From positions 1-53,152 of the forward strand of contig JACSRE010000207.1 of NCBI GenBank assembly GCA_014879945.1: a DNA stretch of 53,152 bases. Direction: 5' to 3'. Positions 13,293 to 29,503 of the stretch are shown here, piece by piece. Numbering within the stretch: the stretch's first letter is position 1; each line of letters begins with the position of its first letter. The notes beneath the pieces were generated by a model that was not told where the DNA came from, did no database searches, and saw nothing but the letters and a program-made list of their open reading frames with translations. A program made the position numbers and the translations under genes. Origin of the DNA: Myxococcus sp. (GTDB lineage Bacteria; Myxococcota; Myxococcia; Myxococcales; Myxococcaceae).

Positions 13293-14378
13293 ATGATTGC
13301 GCTCGCGCTCACGCTCGTGTTGGCCGCGCCCAAGGTCTCCATCGGGCCCACGCCTCCGCTCATCGTGATGATCCGCACCGACGGCCCCTCGTCGTTCGTC
13401 AAGACGCAGGCGCGGCTGCACGAGGAGCTGACGCTGCTGCTCGACTCGTTCATCGTGCTCAACACGCCCATCAGCGTGCCCGACTTCCCGAGGAAGCCGC
13501 TGGCCGACCAGCTGGCCGCGGTGCTGCCGGTGGCCAAGTCGAACGACGCCGCCGCGGTGGTGTGGCTGTCAGAGCCCTTCCCCGGCCAGCTGATGCTCCA
13601 CCTCGTCGCGCAGGGCACCGGCCGAACGCTCGTGCGCACCCTCGAGTTCGACAAGAAGAGCCGCAACGAGAGCGCGCTGGCGCTGATGATGCGCGAGCTG
13701 CTCGGCACCGCGTTCCTCTACGAGGCGCCCGCCACCGTGCCGCCCCAGCTGCGCGCGGTGGTGAAGCAGACGCGCGCCACCATGTCGAACGCCGCCGACG
13801 TCGCCCCGCCGCCCATCGTCGACACGCCCATCGCGCCGCCCGCGCCCATGCCGCCGCCAAGGCCGAAGCGCCTGCGGGTGATGGCGCTGGGGCTGGTGGA
13901 CTCGGGCGTGGTCGACCACGTCGGCGGCGCCACCCGCTACGGAGGCTCGTTCACCGCGCTGTGGAAGTACGACGAGCGAATGGGGCTCGGTTTCGACGTC
14001 GGCCTCACCGGCCACCGCGCGGTGCCCGACCTCAACACCGCCGTGTCGTCGGTGTCGCTCCCGCTCCTCGCCGTCGCCACCCGCAGCTACGCTCTGGGCG
14101 ACTTCGGCTTCTGGCCCCGCGTCGGCCTCGGGCCCGAGCTGACGTGGACCACCTCCCGCCAGGCCGTGCCGGGACAACTCACCACACTCACGGGGGCTGG
14201 ACTCCTCGGGGTCGATGTAAGTGCGGGTGTGCCGCCCCTCTCGATCGTCTTCCGCCTCGACCTCATGGGGCGCCTCGGTCGCTCGCAACTCGCTGAATTG
14301 CCTGGCGACCAGGTGCTGTGGCGGCAGCCTGCGCTCTCGCTGCACGCAGGCATCGGTCTCGCATGGGAAGGGCTTTGA
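13293..14378 (+). CDS. Secreted/outer-membrane protein linked to an ECF sigma factor
   Basis: The 361-residue product starts at the ATG at 13293 with a signal peptide (MIALALTLVLAAPKVS). Residues 20-170 form an alpha/beta region I do not recognise. Residues 180-200 are a Pro-rich linker (PPAPMPPPRPKR). Residues 200-361 contain alternating-residue strands (FTALWKYDERMGLGFDVGLT and similar) that suggest a small beta-barrel in the outer membrane. The end overlaps the sigma factor gene by 16 bp, so the two are translated as a unit. A role as sensor or target of the sigma/FecR pair is plausible but unproven. Confidence 0.7.
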   Translation: MIALALTLVLAAPKVSIGPTPPLIVMIRTDGPSSFVKTQARLHEELTLLLDSFIVLNTPISVPDFPRKPLADQLAAVLPVAKSNDAAAVVWLSEPFPGQLMLHLVAQGTGRTLVRTLEFDKKSRNESALALMMRELLGTAFLYEAPATVPPQLRAVVKQTRATMSNAADVAPPPIVDTPIAPPAPMPPPRPKRLRVMALGLVDSGVVDHVGGATRYGGSFTALWKYDERMGLGFDVGLTGHRAVPDLNTAVSSVSLPLLAVATRSYALGDFGFWPRVGLGPELTWTTSRQAVPGQLTTLTGAGLLGVDVSAGVPPLSIVFRLDLMGRLGRSQLAELPGDQVLWRQPALSLHAGIGLAWEGL

Positions 14379-14938
14379 GTCGTCAGGGCATTGCAGATGA
14401 ATTGACGGCGGGTGACGACGACGACGCATGCGTCAGACGGCTGGTGTCTGGTGACCTGCGTGCGCTCGGGCCTCTCTACACCCGCTACCGAGGAGTGGTG
14501 ATGAACGTGCTTCGACATCAGGTGCGCGAGAGCGAGCTCGACGACCTCTGTCAGGAGGTGTTCCTCACGTTCGCCCAGGTCGCCAACCGCCTCCGCCCCG
14601 GCGTGACGGTGCGCGCCTTCCTCGTCGGCATCGCCGCCAAGAAGGGCAAGAAGTCGGGCGTGATGGAGTGGATGCGGGCGCGCCTCATCGACCGCAACGT
14701 CTCGAAGGAAGAGCCCACCACCAGCCCGCAGCTGCGCGTCGACGCCGGCCGTGACGCCGAGAAGCTGCTCTCGAAGCTGCCCGAGGAGTGGCGCACCATC
14801 GTGGTGCTCAACGTCGTCGAGGGCTGGACCGCCGAAGAGATCGCCGCCTCGCTGGGCGTCAGCCCCAACACCGTCTTCACCCGCCTGCATCGCGCCCGTC
14901 AGAAGATCCGCGAGCTGAGCGAGGGAGCCCCGTCATGA
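14363..14938 (+). CDS. ECF sigma factor (RpoE-like)
   Basis: The 191-residue product starts at the ATG at 14363. Region 2 is seen as LGPLYTRYRGVVMNVL and ELDDLCQEVFLTFAQV, the helix that contacts the -10 element and core polymerase. Region 4 is seen as LPEEWRTIVVLNVVEGWTAE, with its HTH in EEIAASLGVSPNTVFTRLHR, which reads the -35 element. It lacks regions 1 and 3, as expected for ECF factors. The stop overlaps the start of the FecR/TPR gene (ATGA), and the start lies inside the upstream envelope gene. The three therefore form one operon, and the partner gene probably controls the factor. Confidence 0.9.
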   Translation: MGRALSRQGIADELTAGDDDDACVRRLVSGDLRALGPLYTRYRGVVMNVLRHQVRESELDDLCQEVFLTFAQVANRLRPGVTVRAFLVGIAAKKGKKSGVMEWMRARLIDRNVSKEEPTTSPQLRVDAGRDAEKLLSKLPEEWRTIVVLNVVEGWTAEEIAASLGVSPNTVFTRLHRARQKIRELSEGAPS

Positions 14939-16215
14939 CCGAGCAGGCTCCCCAGACCGCGCCCGACCCGGCGTGGGACCAGTTCGCCGCCGAGCTGAAG
15001 GCCGAGCGCGCGCCGCTCTCGGAGCCGCCGTCTCGCCACGAGGTGGCGCGGCTGCTCCAACGCGCCGAAGAGGCCGACACGCAGGCGCCGGCGTGGGCGC
15101 GGTGGATGATGCCGGCCGGGGTGCTGGCGGTGCTGGTGGCGGGCGTCATCGGCTTCGTCGCCCTGCGCGGCGAGCCCGAGGTGCCGTGGACGGCGAAGAC
15201 GGTGCTGGCCTCGGCGGCCACCACCACCGGCGCGGTGACCGAGACGCTCCCCGAGGGCCGCGCGCTGTTGAGCCTGGGGGACGACACCGTCGGCCTCGGC
15301 CCGGACTCGCGCCTCGAGATCGCCTCGGCCAGCTCGAAGGCCACCCGGCTGGTGCTGTCGCGGGGCTCGGTGGCCGCGCACGTCGACCCGTCGCGGGGCG
15401 CGCGCAACTTCGACGTCGATACGCCGCTGGGCCGCGTGCACGTGGTGGGCACCATCTTCCGGGTGCGGGCCATGGGCGACGAGTTGGTTGTTGAAGTGCA
15501 GAAGGGCACCGTCGAGGTGACGCACGGGAGCGCCAGCTCACGCGTGACAGGCGGCCAGCGCCTGGTGGTGAAGGCGGGCGAAGCCACCCTGGGCGCGCGT
15601 GACTCCGACGCCGCCTTCGACGAGCTCTCCGACCAGCCAGTGGTGGTCGTCGCTCCGGTGCCTGAGCCGGTGGTGGAGCAGCCGGTCATCGAGCCGACGC
15701 CCGAGCCGGTCGCCATGAAGGAAGAGCCCCGGAAGAAGGGCGCGGCGCCGGCCTCGAAGCTGGCGGAGTGGCGCACCCGCGCGGCGCGCGGCGAGTGCGG
15801 CCTGGTGATGGCCGAGGTGAAGAAGTCGCTGGGCCAGGCGCCCGACGACATCCTCGCGCGCATGACGCTCGCCGACTGCCAGCGCCGCAGCAACGACATG
15901 AAGGGCGCCCTCGAGAGCTACCTCAAGGCCTCGGCGGGCAAGGGCGCCGACGCGAACCGCGCGACGTTGATGGCGGCCGCGGTGCTGCAAGACGAGCTCG
16001 CCCAACCGGCGAAGGCCCTCAAGCAGCTCGACAGGTACCTGGCCCGCGGCGCCGAGTCGCGCGACCTCGAGGCGAGCGTGCTGGTGCGCAAGGCCCGGGC
16101 GCTCCAGGCGACGGGCAAGAAGCCCCAGGCCCGCGCCATCGTGGAGCAGGTGCTGACGAAGTTCGCCGACACCTCTGCCGCGCCCGAGGCGCTGCGGTTG
16201 CGCGACGCGCTCTGA
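14935..16215 (+). CDS. FecR-domain transmembrane protein with C-terminal TPR-like repeats
   Basis: The 426-residue product has a cytoplasmic N-terminus (1-57), one membrane helix (about 58-77), a periplasmic FecR domain (about 95-225) and a Pro/Glu-rich linker near 240-270. It ends in TPR-like helices (about 290-420). The FecR core is visible as LSLGDDTVGLGPDSRLEIAS, FDVDTPLGRVHVVGTIFRV and VEVQKGTVEVT. FecR proteins pass envelope signals to an ECF sigma factor and often act as its anti-sigma. Here the short N-terminus would hold the sigma encoded directly upstream. The periplasmic TPRs are an addition to the classical FecR layout and may bind envelope proteins. Confidence 0.85.
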   Translation: MTEQAPQTAPDPAWDQFAAELKAERAPLSEPPSRHEVARLLQRAEEADTQAPAWARWMMPAGVLAVLVAGVIGFVALRGEPEVPWTAKTVLASAATTTGAVTETLPEGRALLSLGDDTVGLGPDSRLEIASASSKATRLVLSRGSVAAHVDPSRGARNFDVDTPLGRVHVVGTIFRVRAMGDELVVEVQKGTVEVTHGSASSRVTGGQRLVVKAGEATLGARDSDAAFDELSDQPVVVVAPVPEPVVEQPVIEPTPEPVAMKEEPRKKGAAPASKLAEWRTRAARGECGLVMAEVKKSLGQAPDDILARMTLADCQRRSNDMKGALESYLKASAGKGADANRATLMAAAVLQDELAQPAKALKQLDRYLARGAESRDLEASVLVRKARALQATGKKPQARAIVEQVLTKFADTSAAPEALRLRDAL

Positions 16216-16494: not shown

Positions 16495-16545
16495 TCGCGG
16501 ACAGCCGTTCGCGCAGCCTCCGCGTTGTGGGGAGGTCGCGCACGC

Positions 16546-16866
16546 ATGGCAGGCCGGAAGGTGTTCAACGAGCAGGATGCGCGGAGGTGTCTCGCCGCGG
16601 TGAAGACGTCACGGCGCGAGCTGGCACGAGAGCACGGGGTCGATGGGCGTTCGCTCAACCTGTGGCGGCTGAATCTCGAGCGGCGAGGCGCGGTGCGCGT
16701 GCGAGCGCCCGCACCACGGATGGTCGAGGTGGTGGTCGCGCCGTCGGCCGCGGTGCCGGCCCGGCTACCGTTCGTGCTGCGCGTCGGCAGCGTCGAGCTC
16801 GAGGTCGGCGCGTCCTTCGATGAGAGCGCGCTGCGACGCCTCATCGGGGTGCTCAAGTCGTGCTGA
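16546..16866 (+). CDS. tnpA: IS66 family accessory protein TnpA
   Basis: The 106-residue product starts at the ATG at 16546, behind a purine-rich ribosome-binding site (GGGGAGG at 16529-16535). The N-terminal half is a helix-turn-helix (FNEQDARRCLAAVKTSRREL and HGVDGRSLNLWRL). The C-terminal half has the IS66 Orf1 pattern VLRVGSVELEVGASFDESAL followed by RRLIGVLKS. TnpA is the small DNA-binding accessory protein of IS66 elements and has no catalytic activity. Its stop overlaps the start of the truncated TnpB by seven bases, the coupling normal in IS66. Confidence 0.8.
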   Translation: MAGRKVFNEQDARRCLAAVKTSRRELAREHGVDGRSLNLWRLNLERRGAVRVRAPAPRMVEVVVAPSAAVPARLPFVLRVGSVELEVGASFDESALRRLIGVLKSC

Positions 16867-17759: not shown

Positions 17760-19001
17760 TCACTGCGGCGAGGGGTACTTTCGGGCGATGACGCAGAGCC
17801 CCTCGCCGGCGTTGGCGTGGCCGAACGTCGAGAGGTTGTAGGCCATGTAGTCCGCCAGGTCCTTGAGGCCCGCCGCGCCGCCCGCGGGGTTGACCGGCAC
17901 GCCCTTGGGGTCGAGCGCGAGGCTGCCCATGGTGCGCTCCCCGGCCTGCACGGCGCCGCAGGTGCGAAACGGCACCCGCGTGCCCTGGGCGTCGGTGACG
18001 GCCTCGAGGTCGACGCCCGCGAGGTCGGCGATGGTGACGCTCGCCTCAGGCGCGGGGCCCATCGCCACCGACTTGCGCGCGGCGATGGCGTCGAAGCGCA
18101 GCGGCGCGTCCTCCTCCAGCGCGTCCCAGAAGGGGTGGTCGTTGTGCAGCGTCATCTGCACGGTGGCCTCGGCGCCGTTCGCGCCCAGCTGAACGCCCCG
18201 GCTGTCAGCGGGCATCAGCTCCTGGTTGAGGCAGTTCTTGTACGAGGTGGGCACCCGCCACCCGAACGAGAAGCGCACCACCTTCGGCACGCGGTTGAAG
18301 TCGTAGCCCGGGTTGGTGCTGCGGCAGGCCGGGGTGCTCAGGTCGCCGCGCCACGTCGCCGTGCCCTTCACCCAGTACGACCAGCCGTTCGCGCGCATCA
18401 CCTGGTAGGCCGCCTTCGCGTCGTCGTCGAGGTTGACGTCGAAGGGGCTGGGCGCCGCCGCCACCAGCTCGTACCCGAAGGCGTACTTCGTCGAGGTCGA
18501 GAACGCCGGCGCGCCCGCCTTGAGGTTCTGGTTCGACAGCCGCGCGAGCGCGAAGGCCTTGCCTTCCATGCCCTTCGCCGGGAGCGGCCCTTCCTTCGCC
18601 AGGTCAACCGCCCACGGCCCGGTGGCCCGCGCGACGGGCTCGCCGGTGACGCCCGGGTTGGCGGGAGACAGGTCGGGGTTCTCCGACAGCGTGATGGCGT
18701 CGACGGTGACGAGCAGGTGCTCGTACTGGACCTGCCAGCCATCGATGAAGAACGGCTCCATCGCGCCGGCCGGCGGGGGAAAGGCGAAGCCCTCGGTGGC
18801 CGAGGCCTCAGCGGTGAGGGTGAAGAGGAACGCGCCGTTGGCCGCCGTCGTCGGCGGCGCGGTGAAGGCCCGGAACGTCGCCGGCCCGCCGTCGTCAGGG
18901 GGCTCGACGACGCCCGCGTCAGGCTTCGGGGCCACCGGCCCACAGGCGGTGAACGCTGCTGCCAGGGCCATCAGGCTCGACCAACTCCATACGTGCTTCA
19001 T
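17760..19001 (-). CDS. Lipoprotein of the TonB-receptor operon
   Basis: The 413-residue product starts at an ATG behind AAGGAG and has a lipoprotein signal (FTAC, Cys20), then a short Asp/Pro linker. The mature part is beta-rich, with segments such as FFIDGWQVQYEHLLVTVDAI and YWVKGTATWRGDL. It has five further cysteines and a C-terminal helix-like end (LKDLADYMAYNLSTFGHANA). I do not recognise a named family. It is the third of three overlapping or close genes behind the receptor, 37 bp after the previous one. A role as surface or periplasmic binding partner of the receptor is inferred from position only. Confidence 0.75.
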   Translation of the reverse strand: MKHVWSWSSLMALAAAFTACGPVAPKPDAGVVEPPDDGGPATFRAFTAPPTTAANGAFLFTLTAEASATEGFAFPPPAGAMEPFFIDGWQVQYEHLLVTVDAITLSENPDLSPANPGVTGEPVARATGPWAVDLAKEGPLPAKGMEGKAFALARLSNQNLKAGAPAFSTSTKYAFGYELVAAAPSPFDVNLDDDAKAAYQVMRANGWSYWVKGTATWRGDLSTPACRSTNPGYDFNRVPKVVRFSFGWRVPTSYKNCLNQELMPADSRGVQLGANGAEATVQMTLHNDHPFWDALEEDAPLRFDAIAARKSVAMGPAPEASVTIADLAGVDLEAVTDAQGTRVPFRTCGAVQAGERTMGSLALDPKGVPVNPAGGAAGLKDLADYMAYNLSTFGHANAGEGLCVIARKYPSPQ

Positions 19002-19038: not shown

Positions 19039-19836
19039 TCAGGGCGTCAGCTCGAGCCGGTAGGGGCCCTGGTTGGCGCGCAGCGCGTTGAAGAGGGCGG
19101 TGTCGGCCTGCGCGGCCGAGGCGGTCTCGTCGCGAAACCGGTAGGTCGCCGGCGCCTGGGACACCGGCTCGAGCGTCGCGAAGTCCACCGAGGCGAAGTA
19201 CGCGCGCGGGTCGACGAAGAGCTGAACCGTCGCGCCCGGTGAGAGCGTCGCGTCGAAGGCGATGGGCGTGACGATGCGCTGCTCGCAGATGGGGTTGCTC
19301 GACGGGAGCGCCGGGTTCCGCGGCGGCGTCACGCGGTTGCTGCCGATGCGCACGCTCCCCACGAAGGGGTAGACGTCGGCGCCGCGGCTGGCGGTGCCTT
19401 CGACGCGCAGCACGACGGTCCGCTCGTCGGGAGCGTTGACGTCGCCGTTGGTGAGCCACAGCGAGGCCGAGCGGGTCGGCAGGTCGCTCCCCAGCCCCTC
19501 GGCCGGGAAGGGCTGCGGCGTCGGGTCGAGCGCGTCGACCTCGAGCCCGCCGCGCACCTCGCCGGTGGTGATGCCCGGTGAGACGCACGGCGCCTCGAGC
19601 GCGCCCGAGGCCGTCGTCGGCTCCACGGTGCTCAGGTACAGCGCGCCCACGAAGACGCGCGCGGTGGTGAGGGTGACGTCGAAGCCCCGCGCCGAGGTGA
19701 AGCGCAGCGGCTGCCCCGTCACCGCGCCCACCTCGGGCGCCGCGCCGGCGGTCGCTCGAAAGCTGACGAGCGCGTTCCCGGTCGAGCTGCCGCAGCCGGC
19801 GAGCGCGACGCCGAGCGCCAGGCCGAGCCGTCTCAT
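19039..19836 (-). CDS. Second lipoprotein of the TonB-receptor operon
   Basis: The 265-residue product starts at the ATG at 19836, which overlaps the receptor stop codon (ATGA), so translation is coupled. The signal is short and typical (MRRLGLALGVALAGC, Cys15). The mature protein is beta-rich (FDVTLTTARVFVGALYLSTV, VVLRVEGTA, ATVQLFVDPRAYFASVDFAT) and looks like an immunoglobulin- or transthyretin-like sandwich. I considered the MbnP copper-binding family but could not match its motifs. The long open frame reaching back to 20790 is only the shadow of the receptor gene. Confidence 0.75.
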   Translation of the reverse strand: MRRLGLALGVALAGCGSSTGNALVSFRATAGAAPEVGAVTGQPLRFTSARGFDVTLTTARVFVGALYLSTVEPTTASGALEAPCVSPGITTGEVRGGLEVDALDPTPQPFPAEGLGSDLPTRSASLWLTNGDVNAPDERTVVLRVEGTASRGADVYPFVGSVRIGSNRVTPPRNPALPSSNPICEQRIVTPIAFDATLSPGATVQLFVDPRAYFASVDFATLEPVSQAPATYRFRDETASAAQADTALFNALRANQGPYRLELTP

Positions 19837-22370
19837 GACGCACCTCCCACGTTGAAGGCCAGCGTCAGCATCAGCGCGCGCGGCGCCCCGGCGGTGAAGT
19901 GGCGCACCGGCACCAGGGTGGGGAAGGGCGGCGTCGTCTGGAAGTCGGACGCGAAGTTGAACTCCGAGAGCCGGTAGCGGTTGTCGAAGAGGTTGGTGGC
20001 CGAGAGCCCCACCGTCACCCAGCGCCAGGCGAGCTCGGCGTTGGCGTCTGTGACGAAGATGACGTCGCTGCGCTGGCCGAAGGGCAGGGCCCGGCGCCCG
20101 ACGTACGTCACGCCCACGCCCGCGCTGGCCTTCACCGGCGCGCCGAGCAGCTTCCACGGCAGGTCGTGAAACACCGCGCCGTCGAAGCGCACCACCAGGT
20201 CGGGCACGTAGGGCACCAACAGGCCGGTGTCGTCGAACTGCGAGCGCACGAAGGTGGCGTGAGCCTGCACGTCGAAGAGCGAGCTGCGCGCGCGGGCCTG
20301 GAGCAGGCCGCCCAGCCGCGAGGTGCTCCCGCCGATGACGTTGCGGCCCTCTTGCTCGCTGAAGACCAGGTCCTTGTCGACGCGCGTGCCGAACACCACC
20401 CCGCGCGCGCTGAAGTCGAGCCGCTCGTCGAAGAGCTTGTCGGCGAACACCACCCCGCCCTCCCACGCGCGGATGGCGGCGAACGGCGTCTCTTTGTTCT
20501 CGCTGACGAACTGCGGGTCGATGCTGCGCACCCCGTCGCCGAAGCTGCCCGTCACCGTCACGCCCTTGAAGGGGCCGACCAGCAGGCTCACGCGGGGCAT
20601 CACCGCGGTGCCGAAGGCCGACACGCGCTCGGTGGGCTCGCGGTACTGGCCGAAGTCGCGCTGCGACAGACAGCTCGCGTCGCCCGGAGCGTTGGAAGGC
20701 GAGGGCCGGCGCACGTCGTTCACCGCGCAGGCGTTGTTCACCAGGTACGTCAGCAGGTCGGCGCGCACGCCCCCGCGCAGCGACAGCCACGAGGTGAAGT
20801 TGAGGTTGGCGTCGGCGTAGAGCCCCACGTCAGACAGCCGCGAGCTGAGGTCGTAGTCCTTCGCGTAGGGCGTGTTCGAGTCGCCGCCGAGCAGCCGCTG
20901 CTGCTGGCCCTGCACCACGTCGTAGCGGGCGAAGTAGCCGAGCTCGAGCTCCTGGCTCTGCTCGAAGAGGCGCTTGCGCAGCTTGCCGTAGCCGCGCGCC
21001 GAGACGGTGACGGCCTCGGAGTCGCGGTCGATGAGGTCGCCGCGCTGCCCGTGCGGTGACTGCCGCGGCAGCTGCACGTCGGACAAGAAGCCCGTGAAGT
21101 TCTCGCGCACCCGGCTGGAGCGGAAGACGAGCGCGGCCTGCTGGTGCGCGGTGAAGCTTCCGAGGTGGTAGTGCACGTCGCCCGAGACGCTGGCGCGCGT
21201 CGCGTCGCCTCCCTGGCGCGCGTCGTAGGTGTCGAAGAAGCCGAGGCGCCCCGCGCGGAAGTCGTCGTCGCGCACCACGCCCGCCGAGCGGAAGCCTGCG
21301 GTGTAGCCGATGGCGCGCACCCTGAAGCTCGTCGTCTCTGACAGCCGGCCCTCGTAGCCGGCCGCCGCGCGCGCGCTCTGCGAGCCGCGGTTCTGCCCGA
21401 AGCCGTCGGCGCGCTGGAGTGAGACGCCGCCGTAGGTGCGCGACGAGGCCGACTCGGGGCTCCACAGCAGTACCAGGCGCTGCGCGTTGAAGGAGCCCGC
21501 GCTGGCCTTCACCGTCAACCCCTTCTTCGCCAGCCCCAGCTCGTACTCGGCGCTGCCGGCCACCGCGTAGTTCCCCTGGCGCGGGTCGAAGGGGCCCTCG
21601 ATGACGCGCAGGTTCTCGACCAGCTCGGGGATGATGAAGTTGAGGTCGGCGTAGCCGTTGCCGTGCAGGTTGCCCGAGTCGTTGACGGGCACGCCGTCCA
21701 CCGAGAGCTCGATGTCCTGGCCCTCTCGGGCGTCGAAGCCGCGCATGAAGATGCGCTCGGGGTGCCCGTCGCCGCCCTCGTTGGTGAGCAGCACGCCCGG
21801 CGCGAGCTTGAGCCGCTCGCCGGCGGTCTGCACCGGCACCAGGCTCAGCTTGCCGACCTCGATGTTGAGGTCGGAGGCGCCGCGCGACTTCGGCAGCAGC
21901 CGGCCGGTGATGACCGTCGACATCGCGTGGTCGGCGTGGGCGCCGTCGGCGCCGTCTTCGATGACCTCGGAGGAGTGGGGCGGGTGGGCCGCCGACCCGG
22001 CGTCGGCGTCGTCAGGCTGACCCCCATCGCGCGCGAGCAGCACCGCCGGCATGGCGAAGGACAGACGGGTGCGGCTCGCGACGATGGTGCCCTCGTGCAC
22101 CGCGGGCTTGAAGACCCACCTCGAGAGCGCCTCGCGCGCTGCCGCGTCCCACGCCGGGCCAGCCGACTCGAGCACCACGACGTCGCCGGCGCGGCCCTCG
22201 ACGGTGACGGTGAACTCGAGCAGCACGTGGTCCTGTGACGGCGGCGGGGCCGTGGCGGGGGCGACGGCCTCGACGCGCGTCACCACCTCGGGGGGCACCA
22301 CCTCGCCAGCGCGCGCGCGCGGCGCCAGCAGCGCGAAGAGGACGACGAGCGGGAGCGGTAGAGAACGCAT
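19833..22370 (-). CDS. TonB-dependent receptor with N-terminal TonB-C-like domain
   Basis: The 845-residue product starts at the ATG at 22370 with a signal peptide (LVVLFALLAPRARA). Residues about 45-105 (VLLEFTVTVEGRAGDVVVLE, then AAREALSRWVFKPAVHEG) match the C-terminal domain of TonB energy transducers. Next comes a linker rich in Asp and His (HADHAMSTVITG at its end), then a plug domain (about 150-270, with VQTAGERLKLAPGVLLTNEG and IFMRGFDAREGQDIELSVDG). The rest is a 22-strand type barrel to the C-terminus. TonB-dependent receptors import metal chelates, cobalamin or glycans across the outer membrane. The substrate is not evident; the His/Asp linker hints at a metal. Confidence 0.88.
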   Translation of the reverse strand: MRSLPLPLVVLFALLAPRARAGEVVPPEVVTRVEAVAPATAPPPSQDHVLLEFTVTVEGRAGDVVVLESAGPAWDAAAREALSRWVFKPAVHEGTIVASRTRLSFAMPAVLLARDGGQPDDADAGSAAHPPHSSEVIEDGADGAHADHAMSTVITGRLLPKSRGASDLNIEVGKLSLVPVQTAGERLKLAPGVLLTNEGGDGHPERIFMRGFDAREGQDIELSVDGVPVNDSGNLHGNGYADLNFIIPELVENLRVIEGPFDPRQGNYAVAGSAEYELGLAKKGLTVKASAGSFNAQRLVLLWSPESASSRTYGGVSLQRADGFGQNRGSQSARAAAGYEGRLSETTSFRVRAIGYTAGFRSAGVVRDDDFRAGRLGFFDTYDARQGGDATRASVSGDVHYHLGSFTAHQQAALVFRSSRVRENFTGFLSDVQLPRQSPHGQRGDLIDRDSEAVTVSARGYGKLRKRLFEQSQELELGYFARYDVVQGQQQRLLGGDSNTPYAKDYDLSSRLSDVGLYADANLNFTSWLSLRGGVRADLLTYLVNNACAVNDVRRPSPSNAPGDASCLSQRDFGQYREPTERVSAFGTAVMPRVSLLVGPFKGVTVTGSFGDGVRSIDPQFVSENKETPFAAIRAWEGGVVFADKLFDERLDFSARGVVFGTRVDKDLVFSEQEGRNVIGGSTSRLGGLLQARARSSLFDVQAHATFVRSQFDDTGLLVPYVPDLVVRFDGAVFHDLPWKLLGAPVKASAGVGVTYVGRRALPFGQRSDVIFVTDANAELAWRWVTVGLSATNLFDNRYRLSEFNFASDFQTTPPFPTLVPVRHFTAGAPRALMLTLAFNVGGAS

Positions 22371-22507: not shown

Positions 22508-22894
22508 TCAGGCCTGGGCGCGCGGCGGTGAGGCCTTGGGCGCCAACAGCCACACGGGCGGCCCGGGGCGCCGGGAGGACGAGGTCGCCACCAGCGTCGA
22601 GCCCAGCGACCGCACCGCGCTGACCGGCGCGCGTGACGCGTCGAGCTGCAGCGACTCGGGCGTGGCCTGACAGGCGTCGTCGGGCCAGGCGCCGTCGTCC
22701 GCCGCGGCGCGCTCACAGAGGCTCCGGTCTTCGTGCGCGTGCAGGTCGAGCGAGGCGTGCAGCTCGACCACCGCGCCCGTGGTGCTGACGGTGTGCCGCT
22801 CGAGCGCCATGTGCCCGACGACGAACAGCTGCAGGGCGATCAGCCCCAGCGCCGCCACGGCGCGCCTGATCAGCCGCTGGGGAGCCGGGAGCAC
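22508..22894 (-). CDS. Small membrane/exported protein ahead of the TonB receptor
   Basis: The frame gives 128 residues from a GTG at 22894. Residues 3-27 contain one hydrophobic segment (RRAVAALGLIALQLFVVGHM) that can be a signal anchor. The following region holds several His, Cys and acidic residues (HASLDLHAHEDRSLCERAAA). The end VWLLAPKASPPRA resembles the C-terminus of small proteins encoded beside metal-uptake receptors in myxobacteria. The putative promoter leaves only seven bases before this GTG, so the mRNA may be leaderless or the true start may lie slightly downstream. The frame is open upstream to 22972. Confidence 0.6.
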   Translation of the reverse strand: MLPAPQRLIRRAVAALGLIALQLFVVGHMALERHTVSTTGAVVELHASLDLHAHEDRSLCERAAADDGAWPDDACQATPESLQLDASRAPVSAVRSLGSTLVATSSSRRPGPPVWLLAPKASPPRAQA

Positions 22895-22901
22895 GGCGCC
22901 T

Positions 22902-22930
22902 CTGATAGGGCCGCCCCCCGCCGCTGTCAA
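22902..22930 (-). promoter_or_regulatory. Near-consensus housekeeping promoter for the receptor operon
   Basis: On the minus strand TTGACA (22930-22925) is followed by exactly 17 bases and TATCAG (22907-22902). The -35 is perfect and the -10 matches TATAAT at four of six positions. Transcription would start about at the GTG of the downstream gene. Confidence 0.6.
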
Positions 22931-22944
22931 GCTACTCGCAGCTG

Positions 22945-22954
22945 TGTTGCAACA
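22945..22954. promoter_or_regulatory. 10-bp perfect palindrome upstream of the receptor promoter
   Basis: TGTTGCAACA, centred about 20 bp upstream of the -35 hexamer. Its size and place fit a binding site for a dimeric regulator, but no specific regulator can be named. It could be chance. Confidence 0.3.
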
Positions 22955-23093
22955 ACAACGAAGCAGCGACACGGGTCGGGCGGCGCGCGCAACACTTCTT
23001 CACGCGCCGAGGCCCCGGCAACCGTTCGAGAACACTGCTCTCCGAACCCCCCGCGGGCGCTCGCGCCGCTCATTGACGCAAGTTTCGTTGAGC

Positions 23094-23121: not shown

Positions 23122-23164
23122 GCGCGTTTTCTTGAATCGTCGACTCCCCACTCGAGCGTGGCGC

Positions 23165-23782
23165 ATGGCACGTCCCAGGCTGATCACAGACGAGCAGATC
23201 CTCCAGACGATGCGGGCGTCGGTGCTCGAGCAGGGGCCGGCGGTGTCGCTCGACCTGGTGGCCGGCAAGCTCGGGGTGACCGGCCCGGCCCTGCTGAAGC
23301 GCTTCGGCACCCGGCAGGCGTTGATGATCGAGGCGCTCAAGCCGCCCGACGAGCCGACCTGGGTGCAGGCGCACCGCGAGGTCGACGCCCGCCCGCTCGA
23401 GCAGCAGCTCGAGGCGCTCTTCACCGACATCTGGGTGTTCTTCGCCGAGGCGGTGCCGTGCGTGATGGCGCTGCGCGCGAGCGGCATCGACGACCAGCTC
23501 TGGCAGAGCGCGCTCCGCCCCGGCCCGATTCGGGGCCTGGGCGCGCTGGTGAAGTGGCTCGAGCTGGCGAAGGCCCACGCGCTCGTCGAGAGCGACGACG
23601 TCGAGACCGCCGCCTCGGCGATGCTGGGCGCGCTCCACATGCGCATCATCACCGCGCACCTCAACCGCCAGTCCACGGCCACCCGCCACCACCGCAAGCC
23701 GCTGCGCGCGCTCGCGGTCTTCTTCGCCTCGGCGCTCGCGCCCCGCCGAGCCGCCCCAAACCCCCGCCTGCGTCGCGCCTGA
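23165..23782 (+). CDS. TetR/AcrR family transcriptional regulator
   Basis: The 205-residue product starts at the ATG at 23165 (MARPRLITDEQIL). Residues 8-53 are the TetR DNA-binding domain: the helix-turn-helix lies in VSLDLVAGKLGVTGPALLKR followed by FGTRQALM. The C-terminal 140 residues are helical and form the ligand and dimer domain. The gene directly precedes a complete RND efflux operon on the same strand, with 19 bp between them, and follows a TetR-like operator. It is therefore likely to repress itself and the pump and to release on binding a toxic compound. The ligand is unknown. Confidence 0.88.
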   Translation: MARPRLITDEQILQTMRASVLEQGPAVSLDLVAGKLGVTGPALLKRFGTRQALMIEALKPPDEPTWVQAHREVDARPLEQQLEALFTDIWVFFAEAVPCVMALRASGIDDQLWQSALRPGPIRGLGALVKWLELAKAHALVESDDVETAASAMLGALHMRIITAHLNRQSTATRHHRKPLRALAVFFASALAPRRAAPNPRLRRA

Positions 23783-23801
23783 AGCGCTGGAGCCATCACC
23801 C

Positions 23802-24866
23802 ATGAGAGCCCTGTTGCCCCTCGTCGTCCTCACCGCCCTCGTCGGCTGCAAGAAGCCCGAGGCCGCCGCGCCCGAGAAGGCGAAGGCGACCGAGCTGCCG
23901 CCCGTCAAGGTGACGCTCGGCGCCGTCACCGTCGAGAAGATGCCGCGGCTGTTGACGCTGACCGGCAGCGTGATCGCCGATCGGCAGAGCGAGGTCGCGG
24001 CCAACGTCTCGGGCCGCGTCACCGCCACCTACGTCGAGCGCGGCATGCCGGTGAAGGCCGGGCAGCCCCTCGCGGTGGTCGACGCGCGCGCGGCGGGCTT
24101 TCAGGCGGCGGCGGCGACGGCGCAGAGCCAGGCCGCGCAGACCCAGGTCACGCTCGCCAAGCAGGAGTGCGACCGCGCCGACACCTTGTTCTCGCAGGGC
24201 GCCATTCCCAAGGCCGAGTACGAGCGCCTCAAGACGCAGTGCACGGCGCAGCTCTACAACGCGAACGCCGCGCAGGCGAACGCCGACCTCGCGGGCAAGC
24301 TGGCCGGCGACACCGTCATTCGCGCGCCCATCGACGGCGTCATCGGCGAGCGCTACGTCAGCGTGGGCGAGTACGTGCAGCCGCCGACCCGGGTGGCGAG
24401 CGTGTTCTCGGTGAACCCCGCGCGCCTGACCATCAGCGTGCCCGAGCCCGCCATCGGCCGGGTGCAAGAAGGGCAGACGCTCGAGCTCGAGGTGTCGAGC
24501 TGGCCGGAGCGCACCTTCGCGGCGACGGTGCGCTTCGTCAGCCCCGCGCTGCGCCCCCAGACCCGCGACCTCATCATCGAGGCCAGCGCGAAGAACGACG
24601 ACGGGGCGCTCAAGCCGGGCATGTTCGCGACGGTGCAGCTGATGGTCGGGGAAGAGGAGCTGCCGACGGTGCCCGTCGACGCCATCAAGAAGGACGGCAT
24701 GGTGCGGCGCCTCTTCGTCGCGCGAGAAGGGCACGCCGTCGAGATGGTGGTGAAGACCGGCCTGGTGAAGGACGGCCGCATCGCGGTCTACGAGGCGCTC
24801 CCGGTGGGCACGCCCGTCATCGTCAAACCACCGCCCGGGCTGTCCGACGGCGCCGCCATTCAGTGA
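23802..24866 (+). CDS. RND efflux periplasmic adaptor (membrane fusion protein)
   Basis: The 354-residue lipoprotein (LVGC, Cys16) follows the usual adaptor layout: a first beta-barrel and lipoyl strand (LTGSVIADRQSEVAANVSGR), a coiled-coil hairpin (about residues 95-165), and the second lipoyl half (IRAPIDGVIGERYVSVGEYV). It ends with a beta-barrel and membrane-proximal domain (LKPGMFATVQLMV). It bridges the inner-membrane pump and the outer-membrane channel encoded downstream. The hairpin is short, as in adaptors that dock on TolC-type channels tip to tip. It is the second gene of the operon, 12 bp before the pump gene. Confidence 0.9.
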   Translation: MRALLPLVVLTALVGCKKPEAAAPEKAKATELPPVKVTLGAVTVEKMPRLLTLTGSVIADRQSEVAANVSGRVTATYVERGMPVKAGQPLAVVDARAAGFQAAAATAQSQAAQTQVTLAKQECDRADTLFSQGAIPKAEYERLKTQCTAQLYNANAAQANADLAGKLAGDTVIRAPIDGVIGERYVSVGEYVQPPTRVASVFSVNPARLTISVPEPAIGRVQEGQTLELEVSSWPERTFAATVRFVSPALRPQTRDLIIEASAKNDDGALKPGMFATVQLMVGEEELPTVPVDAIKKDGMVRRLFVAREGHAVEMVVKTGLVKDGRIAVYEALPVGTPVIVKPPPGLSDGAAIQ

Positions 24867-24878
24867 GAGGGCACCACC

Positions 24879-27800
24879 ATGCAATGGCTCGCTGAACTCT
24901 GTGTGAAGCGCCCCGTCTTCGCGACGGTGCTGTCGCTCGTCATCCTCGTCGTCGGTGGCGTCTTCTACCGGCAGCTCGGCGTCGACCAGTTCCCGAAGAT
25001 CGACTTCCCCGCGGTCGTCATCGTCACCGTGCTCCCCGGCGCCGCCCCCGAGGACATGGAGACGGACATCTCGGACAAGATCGAGGGCGCGGTCAACACC
25101 ATCAGCGGCATCGACGAGCTGCGCTCCACCTCGTCAGAGGGCATCTCGACGGTCGTGGTGCAGTTCCTCCTCGAGAAGGACATCAACGTCGCCGCGGCCG
25201 AGGTGCAGCAGAAGATCAACTCGGTGCTCCCCGAGCTGCCCAGGGGCATCGACCCCCCCATCGTGCAGAAGTTCGACCCCGACGCGCAGCCGGTGCTCTA
25301 CATCGCCCTGCGCGCCGAGGGGCAGGACGTCAAGGACGTCACCGACATCGCCGACCGCGTGGTGCGCCGCCGCCTCGAGTCGCTCAGCGGCGTGGGGCAG
25401 GTGACGCTCATCGGCGCCCGCAAGCGGCAGATCAACGTGCTGGTGGACCCGGTGAAGCTCAAGGCCCTGGCCATCACCCCGGCCGAGGTCGGCGCCGCGG
25501 TGAACGCGCAGAACATCACGCTCCCGGGTGGCCGGCTGGACACCAGCCGCGACTACCTGACGCTGCGGGTGAACGGGCGCGTGAAGTCGCTCGACGAGAT
25601 GCGGGCCATCGTCGTGCGCAACAGCCAGGGCCGAGAGGTGCGGCTCGACGAGGTGGCGACCGTCGAAGACGGCGTGGAGGACGTGTCGACCGCTGCCCGG
25701 TGGAACGGCGACCCCACGGTGCTGCTGGCCCTGCGCAAGCAGTCGGGCACCAACACGGTGGCGGTCGTCGACACGGTCCGCGCCCGCCTCGCCGACGTCA
25801 AGAAGGAGCTCCCGAAGGGCTACTCGCTCGAGGTGCAGCGCGACGGGTCGGCCGTCATTCGCACCGGCACCGAGGCGGTGACCGAGCACCTCATCCTCGG
25901 CGCGCTCTTCGCCGCCATCATCGTGCTCATCTTCCTCGGCAACGTGCGCAGCACGGTCATCGCCGCGCTCGCCATTCCGACGTCGATCATCGGCACCTTC
26001 GCGTTGATGAAGTTGATGGACTTCACGCTCAACACCATCACGCTGCTGGCGCTGGCGTTAGCCGTCGGCATCGTCATCGACGACGCCATCGTCGTGCTCG
26101 AGAACATCTTCAAGTACGTCGAAGAGAAGGGCTACGACCCGAAGCAGGCCGCCGTCGCCGGCACGCGCGAGATCGGCCTGGCGGTGCTCGCCACCACGCT
26201 CTCGCTCATCGCCGTCTTCCTGCCCATCGCCTTCATCTCGGGCATTCCCGGCCGCTTCTTGCGCAGCTTCGGCGTCACCATGTCGTTCAGCATCGCGGTG
26301 TCGCTGTTCGTCAGCTTCACGCTCACCCCGATGCTGGCGGCCTATTGGCTGAAGAAGAAGCAGCAGGGCGACCACCGCAAGTCGATGCTCGAGCGCCTGG
26401 TGGACGTCGGCTACCGGCCGGTCGAGCGCGGCTACGGCAGGGTGCTGGCCTTCGTGCTGCGGCACCGGTGGATCGTGCTCATCGCGTCGATCGCCTCGCT
26501 GGCCTCGATGGGGCCGCTGGGCAAGGCCGCGCGCAAGGGCTTCCTGCCCATCGACGACCGCGCCCAGTTCGAGGTGGTGGTGCGGCTGCCCGAGGGCCGC
26601 AGCGTCGCCTCGTCGGAGCTCGTCGGGGAGCGCGTGGCCCGTCAGATTCGAGCGCTGCCCGAGGTGACCGCGACCCTGGTGACGGTGGGCGACGACGCCT
26701 CACGCACCCCCAACCTCGCGCGCATCTACGTGAAGCTGGTGCCCCCCGACCAGCGCGTCATCACCCAGAACGAGCTCAAGGGCGTGGTGCGAGAGACCAT
26801 CATCTCGAAGCTGCCGAAGGACCTGCGGGTGACGGTGGCCGACGTGAACGAGTTCGGCGGAGGCCAGGCGACCGCGCGCATTCAGTACCTGCTCGCCGGG
26901 CCCGACCTGAAGCTCCTCACCGAGGCCAACGAGCGGGTGCTGGAGAAGCTGCGGAAGATCCCCGACGCGGTCGACGTGGATTCATCGCTCATCGTCGGCA
27001 AGCCCGAGCTGGGCGTGAGCATCGACCGGCAGCGGGCCGCCGATCTCGGGGTGCAGGTCAGCGACGTCGCGCAGGCGCTCCAGCTGCTGGTCGCGGGCCA
27101 GAAGGTCTCTTCCTACGCAGAGGGCGGCGAGCAGTACGACGTGCGGCTGCGCGCCCTGCCGGTGTACCGGTCGAACGAAGACATGCTGCAGTTGTTGACG
27201 GTGCCCAGCCGCAAGGTGGGGCTCGTCTCGCTCTCTGACGTGGTGCGCTTCGAGCCCGGCACCAGCCCCGCGTCGATCTTGCGGTTCCAACGAGAGCGGC
27301 AGGTGACCTTCCTGGTCAACGGCAAGCCGGGCGCGAACGAGGGAGCCATCGGCGACGCGGTGCTGTCGATCCTCGAAGACGAGGTGCGCGCGCTCCCGCG
27401 GGGCTTCTCGGCGCGGCCTCAGGGCCAGACGAAGATCATGAAGGAGGTCGCCCAGAGCTTCCTCTTCGGCCTGCTGGCGTCGATGCTCTTCATGTACCTG
27501 ATCCTCGCGGCGCAGTTCGAGTCGTGGCTGCACCCGGTCACCATCCTCATCTCGCTGCCGCTGACCCTGCCGTACGCCATCCTCTCCATCATCCTCTTCG
27601 ACCAGGCGCTCGACCTCTACTCGGGGCTCGGCATCTTCGTGCTGTTCGGCGTGGTGAAGAAGAACGCGATTCTGCAGATCGACCACACCAACCAGCTGCG
27701 TGAGGCTGGCAAAGGGCTGCTGGCGGCGGCCGGGCGCATCGTCGAGCGCGGCCAGGCGTGGAGCGCCACCCGGGGCGAGCTGCACGAGCTGCTCGACGCC

Positions 27801-28220
27801 GAGCTCGGCGCGCACGAGCTCGACCGCGCGCTCGCGAAGGCCCGGCCCGATGACCCGGCCAGCGTCAAGCGGCAGCTCGAGAAGGCGTGGCGCTTCAAGG
27901 CCATCTTGAAGGGCAACAAAGACCGCCTGCGCCCCATCTTGATGACCACCCTCGCCTTCGTGGCCGGCATGATCCCGCTCGTCACCTCGAAGGGCATCGG
28001 GGCCGGCTACAACCGGGCGACCGCCGGCGTGGTGGTGGGAGGCCAGACCCTGTCGCTGGTGCTGACGCTGCTCGCGGTGCCGGTGGCGTACTCGTACTTC
28101 GACGACATCGTGTTGTTCTTCAAGAAGTACCGCGCGGGCGACAGTGAGGTCGAGCTGTCGTCGGCCGACACTGGCGAGCACGACGCGCACGCGCCGCTCG
28201 CGGGGGAGGTCTCGAAATGA
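24879..28220 (+). CDS. RND efflux pump, AcrB/HAE1 family
   Basis: The 1113-residue inner-membrane pump exports hydrophobic compounds using the proton gradient. It shows the family start (MQWLAELCVKRPVFATVLSL), the porter-domain segments FPKIDFPAVVIVTVLPGAAP and GVGQVTLIGARKRQINV, and the proton-relay aspartate pair in VGIVIDDAIVVLENI. It also has the second-half repeat LRPILMTTLAFVAGMIPL. Length is slightly above the usual 1030-1050. The excess is a charged helical insert of about 65 residues near 945-1010, in the cytoplasmic loop before that last motif. Its stop overlaps the TolC-like gene start by four bases (ATGA). Confidence 0.92.
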   Translation: MQWLAELCVKRPVFATVLSLVILVVGGVFYRQLGVDQFPKIDFPAVVIVTVLPGAAPEDMETDISDKIEGAVNTISGIDELRSTSSEGISTVVVQFLLEKDINVAAAEVQQKINSVLPELPRGIDPPIVQKFDPDAQPVLYIALRAEGQDVKDVTDIADRVVRRRLESLSGVGQVTLIGARKRQINVLVDPVKLKALAITPAEVGAAVNAQNITLPGGRLDTSRDYLTLRVNGRVKSLDEMRAIVVRNSQGREVRLDEVATVEDGVEDVSTAARWNGDPTVLLALRKQSGTNTVAVVDTVRARLADVKKELPKGYSLEVQRDGSAVIRTGTEAVTEHLILGALFAAIIVLIFLGNVRSTVIAALAIPTSIIGTFALMKLMDFTLNTITLLALALAVGIVIDDAIVVLENIFKYVEEKGYDPKQAAVAGTREIGLAVLATTLSLIAVFLPIAFISGIPGRFLRSFGVTMSFSIAVSLFVSFTLTPMLAAYWLKKKQQGDHRKSMLERLVDVGYRPVERGYGRVLAFVLRHRWIVLIASIASLASMGPLGKAARKGFLPIDDRAQFEVVVRLPEGRSVASSELVGERVARQIRALPEVTATLVTVGDDASRTPNLARIYVKLVPPDQRVITQNELKGVVRETIISKLPKDLRVTVADVNEFGGGQATARIQYLLAGPDLKLLTEANERVLEKLRKIPDAVDVDSSLIVGKPELGVSIDRQRAADLGVQVSDVAQALQLLVAGQKVSSYAEGGEQYDVRLRALPVYRSNEDMLQLLTVPSRKVGLVSLSDVVRFEPGTSPASILRFQRERQVTFLVNGKPGANEGAIGDAVLSILEDEVRALPRGFSARPQGQTKIMKEVAQSFLFGLLASMLFMYLILAAQFESWLHPVTILISLPLTLPYAILSIILFDQALDLYSGLGIFVLFGVVKKNAILQIDHTNQLREAGKGLLAAAGRIVERGQAWSATRGELHELLDAELGAHELDRALAKARPDDPASVKRQLEKAWRFKAILKGNKDRLRPILMTTLAFVAGMIPLVTSKGIGAGYNRATAGVVVGGQTLSLVLTLLAVPVAYSYFDDIVLFFKKYRAGDSEVELSSADTGEHDAHAPLAGEVSK

Positions 28221-29503
28221 GGACGATGACGTGGGTGGTGCTGGTGGCGGCCTCGCAGGCCGTCGCGCAGCCGAAGACGCTGAAGGACTTCCTGGCGAGC
28301 GCCGACGAGCAGAACCTCGAGCGGCGCATCTCACTCGAGCAGCGCCAGCGTGCCGAGGCCGAGTTCCGCGCCGCGTGGTCGGGCCTGCTGCCGTCGCTGT
28401 CGGCGAGCGCCACGTGGACGCACAACCAGTTCGAGGCGGTGGCCAACTTCCCCAACCCGGCCACCGGCGCGGTGACGAAGCTCATCATCCTGCCGGCCGA
28501 TCAGTTCGACGCCGTGGTGCGCCTCGACGTGCCGCTCATCGACACCACCCGCTGGTTCCGCGCGCTCGCGGCCGACACCGCGCAGACCTCTGCGGCCGAG
28601 CGTGAGCAGCTGACGCGCGACCTCGTGCGGCGGCAGGTGGTGGGCGCCTACTACGGCTACGCCGCGGCGCTGGCGGTGCGCGCCTCGGCGAAGAAGTCGG
28701 TGGGCGTCGCCGAGGCGCAGCTGAAGTTCATCGACGTGCGGGTGGGCGCCGGTTCGGCCACCGAGCTCGAGCAGCTGCGGGCGAGGGCCGAGGTGGCCCG
28801 CAACCGGCAGACCCTGGCCGACGTCGAGAGCCTCGTGGCGACCACGCGCCGCACCCTGCGCACGGTCTCGTTCCTCGAGCCGCCCGTCGAGGTCGCGATG
28901 CCGACCGATGACCTGCACGCCGAGGGCACCGCCGAGTCGTTCGAGGCGCGGGTCGCCGAGCTGCCCACGGTGAAGGCCGCCGACCTCGACGCGGCGGCCG
29001 CCGACAAGCTCGCCACCGCCTCGCGCCTGGCCCTGGTGCCCATCGTCAGCGGCCAGTTCACCCAGCGCTTCACCAACGCCACCGGCTTTCAGAACCAGTC
29101 GGCCGTCTACAACGCCGGCATCGGGCTCCAGTGGCGCCTCGACGTGCCCACCTTTCAGAACATGAGCGTGCAGGCCTCGGCGGCGTCGACGGCGAAGCTG
29201 GCGGCCGAGCGCTCGCGGCTGCAGGTCAGAGATCAGATCTTCCAGGACTGGAACCGCCTCGAGGCCGCGCGTCAGAAGGCCGAGCTGGTGCAGGCGCAGG
29301 TGGCGGCGGCGGAGCGCGCGGCGCAGGTGGCGAGAGACCGCTACGCCGTCGGCGCGGCCACGCAGGTCGACGTGATTCAGTCGGAGCGCGACCTCTTCGG
29401 CGCCGAGGTGGCGCAGATTCAGGCGCGCACCGAGCTGGGCACCGCGCGCGCGTCGTTGCGGCTGAGCGCGGGGCTGCCGCTCTTCCCCGAGGAGCCGCGG
29501 TAG
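28217..29503 (+). CDS. TolC-type outer-membrane efflux channel
   Basis: The 428-residue product has a Sec signal (VVLVAASQAVAQ) and two outer-membrane efflux protein repeats (about 25-215 and 235-425) with long helices. Examples are AEAQLKFIDVRVGAGSATEL in the first and AAQVARDRYAVGAATQVDVI in the second, the second matching the conserved RYxxGxxxxxDVL pattern. Three copies would form the channel-tunnel for the adaptor and pump encoded just upstream. The signal ends in AVAQ without a lipobox cysteine, so it is not a lipoprotein, unlike many OprM-type channels. The ATGA overlap with the pump gene implies coupled translation. Confidence 0.9.
   Translation: MRTMTWVVLVAASQAVAQPKTLKDFLASADEQNLERRISLEQRQRAEAEFRAAWSGLLPSLSASATWTHNQFEAVANFPNPATGAVTKLIILPADQFDAVVRLDVPLIDTTRWFRALAADTAQTSAAEREQLTRDLVRRQVVGAYYGYAAALAVRASAKKSVGVAEAQLKFIDVRVGAGSATELEQLRARAEVARNRQTLADVESLVATTRRTLRTVSFLEPPVEVAMPTDDLHAEGTAESFEARVAELPTVKAADLDAAAADKLATASRLALVPIVSGQFTQRFTNATGFQNQSAVYNAGIGLQWRLDVPTFQNMSVQASAASTAKLAAERSRLQVRDQIFQDWNRLEAARQKAELVQAQVAAAERAAQVARDRYAVGAATQVDVIQSERDLFGAEVAQIQARTELGTARASLRLSAGLPLFPEEPR

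Follow-up and report, generated by a model that had tools for sequence, protein, structure and literature searches.

A TonB-dependent receptor encoded by Myxococcus sp. carries a TonB C-terminal-like domain ahead of its plug, an arrangement that is genuine, ancient, and frequent among Myxococcota. The gene lies in a window of 53,152 nucleotides, by which we mean the whole stretch of DNA that was analysed, which is contig C274 in a genome of 7.7 Mb. From the N- to the C-terminus, the protein comprises a signal-peptide-like start, the TonB_C fold, a linker of 41 residues, a putative TonB box, a plug, and a barrel, which are encoded as follows:

19833..22370, (-) strand: TonB-dependent receptor of 845 aa, stop not counted, with a TonB C-terminal domain at its N-terminus; ATG at 22370 and the stop at 19833-19835
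22308..22370, (-) strand: probable Sec signal peptide, residues 1-21; assigned by eye and poorly conserved
22047..22301, (-) strand: TonB C-terminal-domain fold, residues 24-108; the Pfam match to residues 46-105 corresponds to 22056-22235
21924..22046, (-) strand: low-complexity linker containing Asp, Pro, and His, residues 109-149; pLDDT <50 over residues 109-150 of the full-length model
21897..21923, (-) strand: residues 150-158, MSTVITGRL, taken by eye from the alignment as a putative TonB box
21555..21836, (-) strand: plug domain, residues 179-272; PF07715, 46.2 bits
19836..21530, (-) strand: outer-membrane beta-barrel, residues 281-845; assigned from the fold matches of the model to BtuB, PqqU, and FecA

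The sequence-only reading had placed a TonB C-terminal-like domain at residues 45-105, in front of the plug, and had suggested a profile search and a structure prediction as checks. Both were run and, together with the recurrence of the domain in relatives, they confirm it, with an actual extent that is slightly larger, from residue 24 to about 106-108. In Pfam, TonB_C (PF03544) matched residues 46-105 (E 3.7e-7, 31.0 bits, cut-off 24.6), and neither STN (PF07660) nor CarboxypepD_reg was found in the receptor at E <= 10. The TIGR01352 profile (tonB_Cterm, cut-off 27.1) gave 29.7 bits for residues 20-138 alone and 25.5 bits for the whole protein, and a phmmer search against the PDB matched residues 47-103 to Pseudomonas aeruginosa TonB (6i97 and 6fip, E 4e-6 to 5e-6). 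An AlphaFold model of residues 22-165, built with 66 relatives, reached a pLDDT of about 91-98 across the N-terminal domain and had a TonB C-terminal-domain fold. With this fragment model, all Foldseek matches ranked 1-17 were TonB, FusB, or HasB, with TonB C-terminal domains at the top, and the best VIA-align match was P. aeruginosa TonB in its complex with FoxA (6i97_D, Z 12.1, 86 residues, 1.9 Å), followed by Neisseria TonB (Z 10.3) and TonB in complex with BtuB (Z 9.9). A chance origin of the TonB_C match is excluded by the scores of the curated profiles, by the fold, by the presence of the domain in 77 of 97 relatives of known status, and by the lack of any TonB_C match in a related receptor of the same genome (L058). 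The possibility that an STN or carboxypeptidase-like domain had been mistaken for TonB_C is likewise ruled out by the Pfam result and the structural match.

The remainder of the protein is that of a barrel receptor, and the only N-terminal membrane-type segment, judged by eye, is the signal-peptide-like stretch shortly ahead of TonB_C. The protein was classed as a TonB-dependent receptor through a profile for the plug (PF07715, residues 179-272, 46.2 bits against a cut-off of 23.9) and through a fold match, rather than a strand-by-strand count, for the barrel. PF00593 had no Pfam match in the window receptor and does match the relatives L111, L116, and L127. Built with 29 sequences, the AlphaFold model of the whole protein (mean pLDDT 79.7) is a plug-and-barrel whose closest structures are BtuB (Z 35.7), PqqU (Z 35.4 over 601 residues), and FecA. 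Several PDB alignments of this model start at residues 84-96, within TonB_C, and the model gives no score for where the domain sits with respect to the barrel. A PHROGs search returned only an unnamed family covering the plug. A plasmid search returned 49 matching records, none spanning 80% of the query, and the best 20 of the 49 begin at residue 152 or later and are therefore without TonB_C among the matches listed.

The layout is not confined to this gene. TonB_C occurs in 4 of the 15 plug frames of the window genome, and of the other three receptors, those on C77 and C113 have CarboxypepD_reg between TonB_C and the plug and the one on C46 does not. Across 11 related genomes, each with at least one such receptor, no fewer than 36 of 147 plug frames have TonB_C. 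This is a lower bound, for which TonB_C matches were counted in long frames and in one split gene, along with the plug frames on the same contigs; the domain lies ahead of the plug in 36 of 36 cases. By comparison of the lists by eye, the 20 STN matches in these same genomes all fall outside the plug frames (0/147). The family of the window receptor has matches in 116 of the 145 genomes of the order and 80 named loci, with hosts that include Myxococcus xanthus, Corallococcus, Polyangium, Sorangium, Sandaracinus, Labilithrix, and one Bdellovibrionales MAG. M. xanthus strain AM003 is the source of L111, and laboratory strains of this species would be expected to have a family member of the same layout and an MxcH match (L161). 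Orthologues elsewhere, on this scale, rule out a single odd gene or a chimeric assembly. Within the family, the domain is present in 77 of the 97 tree rows of known status, with about 13 changes of state on a quick tree that has some long branches (L076, L124, and L073) and whose change counts do not separate gain from loss. These rows leave out L077 and L078, whose genes run off the contig; L069 and L071 are complete. The domain is missing from a clade formed by L056-L058, L071, and L156-L158, as well as from L054, L069, L105, L106, L114, L119, and others. In L050/L092, a complete gene in a genome of 2.7 Mb, a low-complexity stretch stands where TonB_C would be.

Where present, the domain is under purifying selection at a rate near that of the barrel. 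In four orthologues, the dN/dS of the domain and the barrel was 0.146 v 0.129, 0.305 v 0.253, 0.335 v 0.321, and 0.431 v 0.382, respectively. The linker gave, in the same order, 0.416, 0.482, 0.622, and 0.431, so that the domain was lower in three of the four and equal in the fourth, and the signal peptide ranged from 0.59 to 0.73. The divergence of the domain correlates with that of the receptor body (Pearson 0.65 over 77 rows and 2926 pairs, a value reached in 0 of 2000 Mantel permutations), with a rank correlation of just 0.19. Given this joint divergence and the dN/dS values, the domain is mostly inherited with the receptor and maintained by selection. The window domain is nearest to copies in its own receptor clade, with up to 91% identity; against four TonB-type domains of the genome, the class-2 receptors, and MxcH, identity is 26-34%. 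A Tyr-Pro at the start of the domain, found in the four compared TonBs of the genome and in many relatives, including other family members such as L049, L099, and L103, has been lost in the clade of the window receptor.

Several neighbouring genes bear on what the domain might do:

19039..19836, (-) strand: DN1, a putative lipoprotein whose start codon overlaps the stop codon of the receptor gene (ATGA)
17760..19001, (-) strand: DN2, putative lipoprotein, 37 bases after DN1
22508..22972, (-) strand: small His-containing protein, encoded upstream of the receptor gene; uncertain start, homologues in 7/40 regions
14366-16215, opposite strand to the receptor: ECF sigma factor and FecR-domain protein, with the DN2 gene about 1.5 kb away

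Owing to the ATGA overlap, DN1 and the receptor are probably in one operon. Of the 40 regions searched, 14 have a DN1 homologue that is 42-81% identical and 2 more have a weak match; homologues of DN2 lie near 29 of 32 receptors. DN2 has no relative in Pfam or the PDB; its invariant residues are the cysteine at the lipobox position, H286, H289, C257, and C403, and a metal-related role would be only a guess. Since DN2 is also kept beside receptors that have no TonB_C (L056, L057, L058, and L071), it does not explain the domain. The FecR gene was matched, among the 40 regions (32 with a receptor, and some of them short), only in L039, the closest relative of the window, and the FecR/ECF pair was dropped as a cognate partner because it is not conserved across these regions.

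Using a loose pattern, we found a stretch resembling a TonB box in 43 of the 77 receptors that have the domain and in 13 of the 22 that do not, 4 of these 22 having no N-terminus to search. Its occurrence in both groups indicates that the box-like stretch is independent of the domain. Where a box was found, the linker ranges from 14 to 129 residues across relatives, and in some of them it is His-rich.

The domain is best read as a periplasmic module that would serve in regulation or docking, in the place that STN holds elsewhere, as in FecA and FpvA. TonB C-terminal domains attach to TonB boxes by adding a strand, and a free periplasmic TonB domain reportedly inhibits uptake in E. coli. A tethered copy would compete strongly at its site unless its affinity had dropped, and the loss of Tyr-Pro may have reduced affinity and weakened box binding. 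The best explanation that we can offer, with a probability of roughly 0.4, is that a genuine TonB domain on a tether competes in cis. The domain would be held by a flexible linker just ahead of the TonB-box-like stretch of its own receptor, at a high local concentration, and could reversibly cover that box, or the TonB bound there, by beta-strand addition; a loaded receptor would be energised and an empty one would not, with the energy presumably still coming from a separate TonB-ExbB-ExbD. In favour of such competition, the fold matches receptor-bound TonB best, and a box-like stretch is retained 41 residues past the domain.

That the domain might occupy the TonB box of its own receptor had already been suggested in the sequence-only reading. 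Such occupancy is feasible on steric grounds, and FpvA offers a precedent, since its signalling domain takes the TonB-box strand into its sheet according to the available part of PMC11658791. In the fragment model of residues 22-165, however, the putative box (150-158) is not a strand, has low confidence, and does not pair with the domain, and the full-length model shows a short strand at residues 151-154, among low-confidence residues, that is absent from the fragment model. The missing pairing is weak evidence against capping, given that AlphaFold can miss transient strand exchange and that the model came without PAE. Also against competition in cis, the Tyr-Pro has been lost in the clade of the window receptor, a linker that varies from 14 to 129 residues would be odd for a precise switch, and domain-less receptors retain comparable TonB-box stretches. 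A further suggestion, that the domain is a self-coupling device, is unlikely on topology: the protein has a signal peptide and forms a barrel in the outer membrane, keeps a separate box-like stretch, and shows no tie to ExbB/ExbD.

Other roles rank below competition in cis in the order of docking to TonB, signalling, hand-off of a substrate, and a relic. TonB-type domains are versatile: in the abstract of PMC13253070, the C-terminal domain of FusB dimerises, in a monomer-dimer equilibrium, and binds both the box of its receptor and a substrate. The equilibrium is consistent with a domain that docks to TonB itself, as is the constitutive TonB binding attributed to a segment of FoxA upstream of the TonB box in the accessible portions of PMC11637429 and PMC11658791, and we consider docking rather unlikely. 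Similarly doubtful is a signalling module in which a TonB-type domain has replaced STN in Myxococcota and makes contact with an anti-sigma factor or some other partner in the inner membrane. A signalling domain was among the suggestions of the sequence-only reading, and the position fits, being the same as that of STN; STN is in 0 of the 147 plug frames of the 11 genomes, where TonB_C is in at least 36. In FoxA, the signalling domain protects the anti-sigma factor in the part of PMC11637429 available to us. The window also encodes an ECF sigma factor and a FecR-domain protein, but their genes are on the other strand and the pair is nearby only here and in the closest relative, although not all of the 40 regions reach far enough to include it. 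Less probable again is that the domain catches a substrate or the lipoproteins DN1 or DN2 in the periplasm, as the C-terminal domain of FusB does with ferredoxin in the same abstract (PMC13253070). The two lipoprotein genes travel with the receptor and some linkers are rich in histidine, and yet DN2 is not tied to the domain, staying beside the four domain-less receptors named above. We regard as very improbable a dispensable remnant of an ancient fusion with no present role: the 13 state changes and the low-complexity stretch that replaces the domain in L050 would suit one, but purifying selection matching that of the barrel and retention in 77 of 97 members argue against it.

How few TonB molecules are allocated among many receptors is an open question, and a receptor that holds the gripping domain of TonB beside its own box is a natural experiment on this allocation, whether the extra domain proves to compete on its tether, to aid docking, or to signal in a new way. 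In its boldest form, which we think unlikely as a whole, the proposal would be that Myxococcota swapped STN for a TonB C-terminal domain as their common extension, and that around a quarter of their receptors have a built-in TonB competitor or partner that gates energy by strand exchange at its own box. The layout is widespread and conserved, and surveys of architectures based on fixed lists have missed it even though it accounts for at least 36 of the 147 plug frames in 11 genomes. For instance, a survey of 34,893 receptors named five N-terminal architectures, none of them with TonB_C in the portion of the text available (PMC6434023). Likewise, the consulted parts of a study on siderophore transport in M. 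xanthus mention the TonB-dependent receptor MXAN_6911 and no domain (PMC9738627), and the fusion is not described in the excerpts of PMC12204202. No description of it was found in the literature searched, which mostly excluded subscription journals; the layout is, nonetheless, already implicit in databases through matches to MxcH.

TonB is defined by an inner-membrane anchor and a long periplasm-spanning segment. The window receptor shares with this energy transducer the same C-terminal domain fold (Z 12.1 to receptor-bound TonB), but here the domain is N-terminal and on a barrel protein. Like the STN transducers FecA, FpvA, and FoxA, it has a plug and barrel fold and an extra periplasmic domain between the signal peptide and the TonB box, which is putative in its own case; unlike them, it has no conserved FecR/ECF neighbour, and its extra domain is, by sequence and fold, a TonB C-terminal domain rather than STN. 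Oar-type receptors also have an N-terminal extension ahead of the plug, but in those the extension is CarboxypepD_reg, which the window receptor does not have. The same layout is seen in MxcH, the myxochelin receptor (NCBIfam NF038079), represented above the cut-off by L159-L161 in three genomes, with TonB_C ahead of the plug at 53-63 bits. Residues 20-138 of the window receptor align to positions 1-84 of the MxcH profile (E 3e-10), but the window receptor scores only 53.2 bits against a cut-off of 925, over profile positions 1-264, which rules out an MxcH orthologue and makes it a distant relative.

The genes surrounding the 845-residue TonB-dependent receptor are as follows.

14366-16215, plus strand: genes for an ECF sigma factor and, after it, a FecR-domain protein
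16525-16866, plus strand: small ORF resembling, by eye, an IS66-type accessory protein
17760-19001, minus strand: DN2, putative lipoprotein
19039-19836, minus strand: DN1, putative lipoprotein
23132-29503, plus strand: genes for a TetR-like regulator, a membrane-fusion protein and an RND pump, plus one more ORF

The DN1 and DN2 genes, directly downstream of the receptor gene, are conserved neighbours of its family across Myxococcota. Among the homologues compared, the H-x-x-H motif and the cysteines of the DN2 protein are invariant, and a search for relatives in Pfam and the PDB placed it in no known family. The cluster with the RND pump is divergent from the receptor operon, and its TetR-like regulator and membrane-fusion protein also adjoin the receptor in the closest relative (L039) and in L040. 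Across the 40 regions compared, some of them short, the ECF/FecR pair, whose FecR-domain protein additionally gives a weak TPR match, is retained in L039 only. The small ORF is possibly a transposon remnant.

Three receptors on other contigs of the same genome (L059, L060 and L061, on C77, C113 and C46, respectively) form a second class with TonB_C ahead of the plug, and in two of them a CarboxypepD_reg domain lies between the two.

The receptor N-terminus also varies among relatives. In L050, which is closely related and comes from a genome of 2.7 Mb, a repetitive low-complexity stretch takes the place of the TonB_C domain; L050 and L092 occupy the same genome place. In L151, the TonB-box-like stretch follows TonB_C almost directly, with hardly any linker, which makes this receptor well suited for testing the proposed cis pairing of the domain with the box-like stretch of the same protein.
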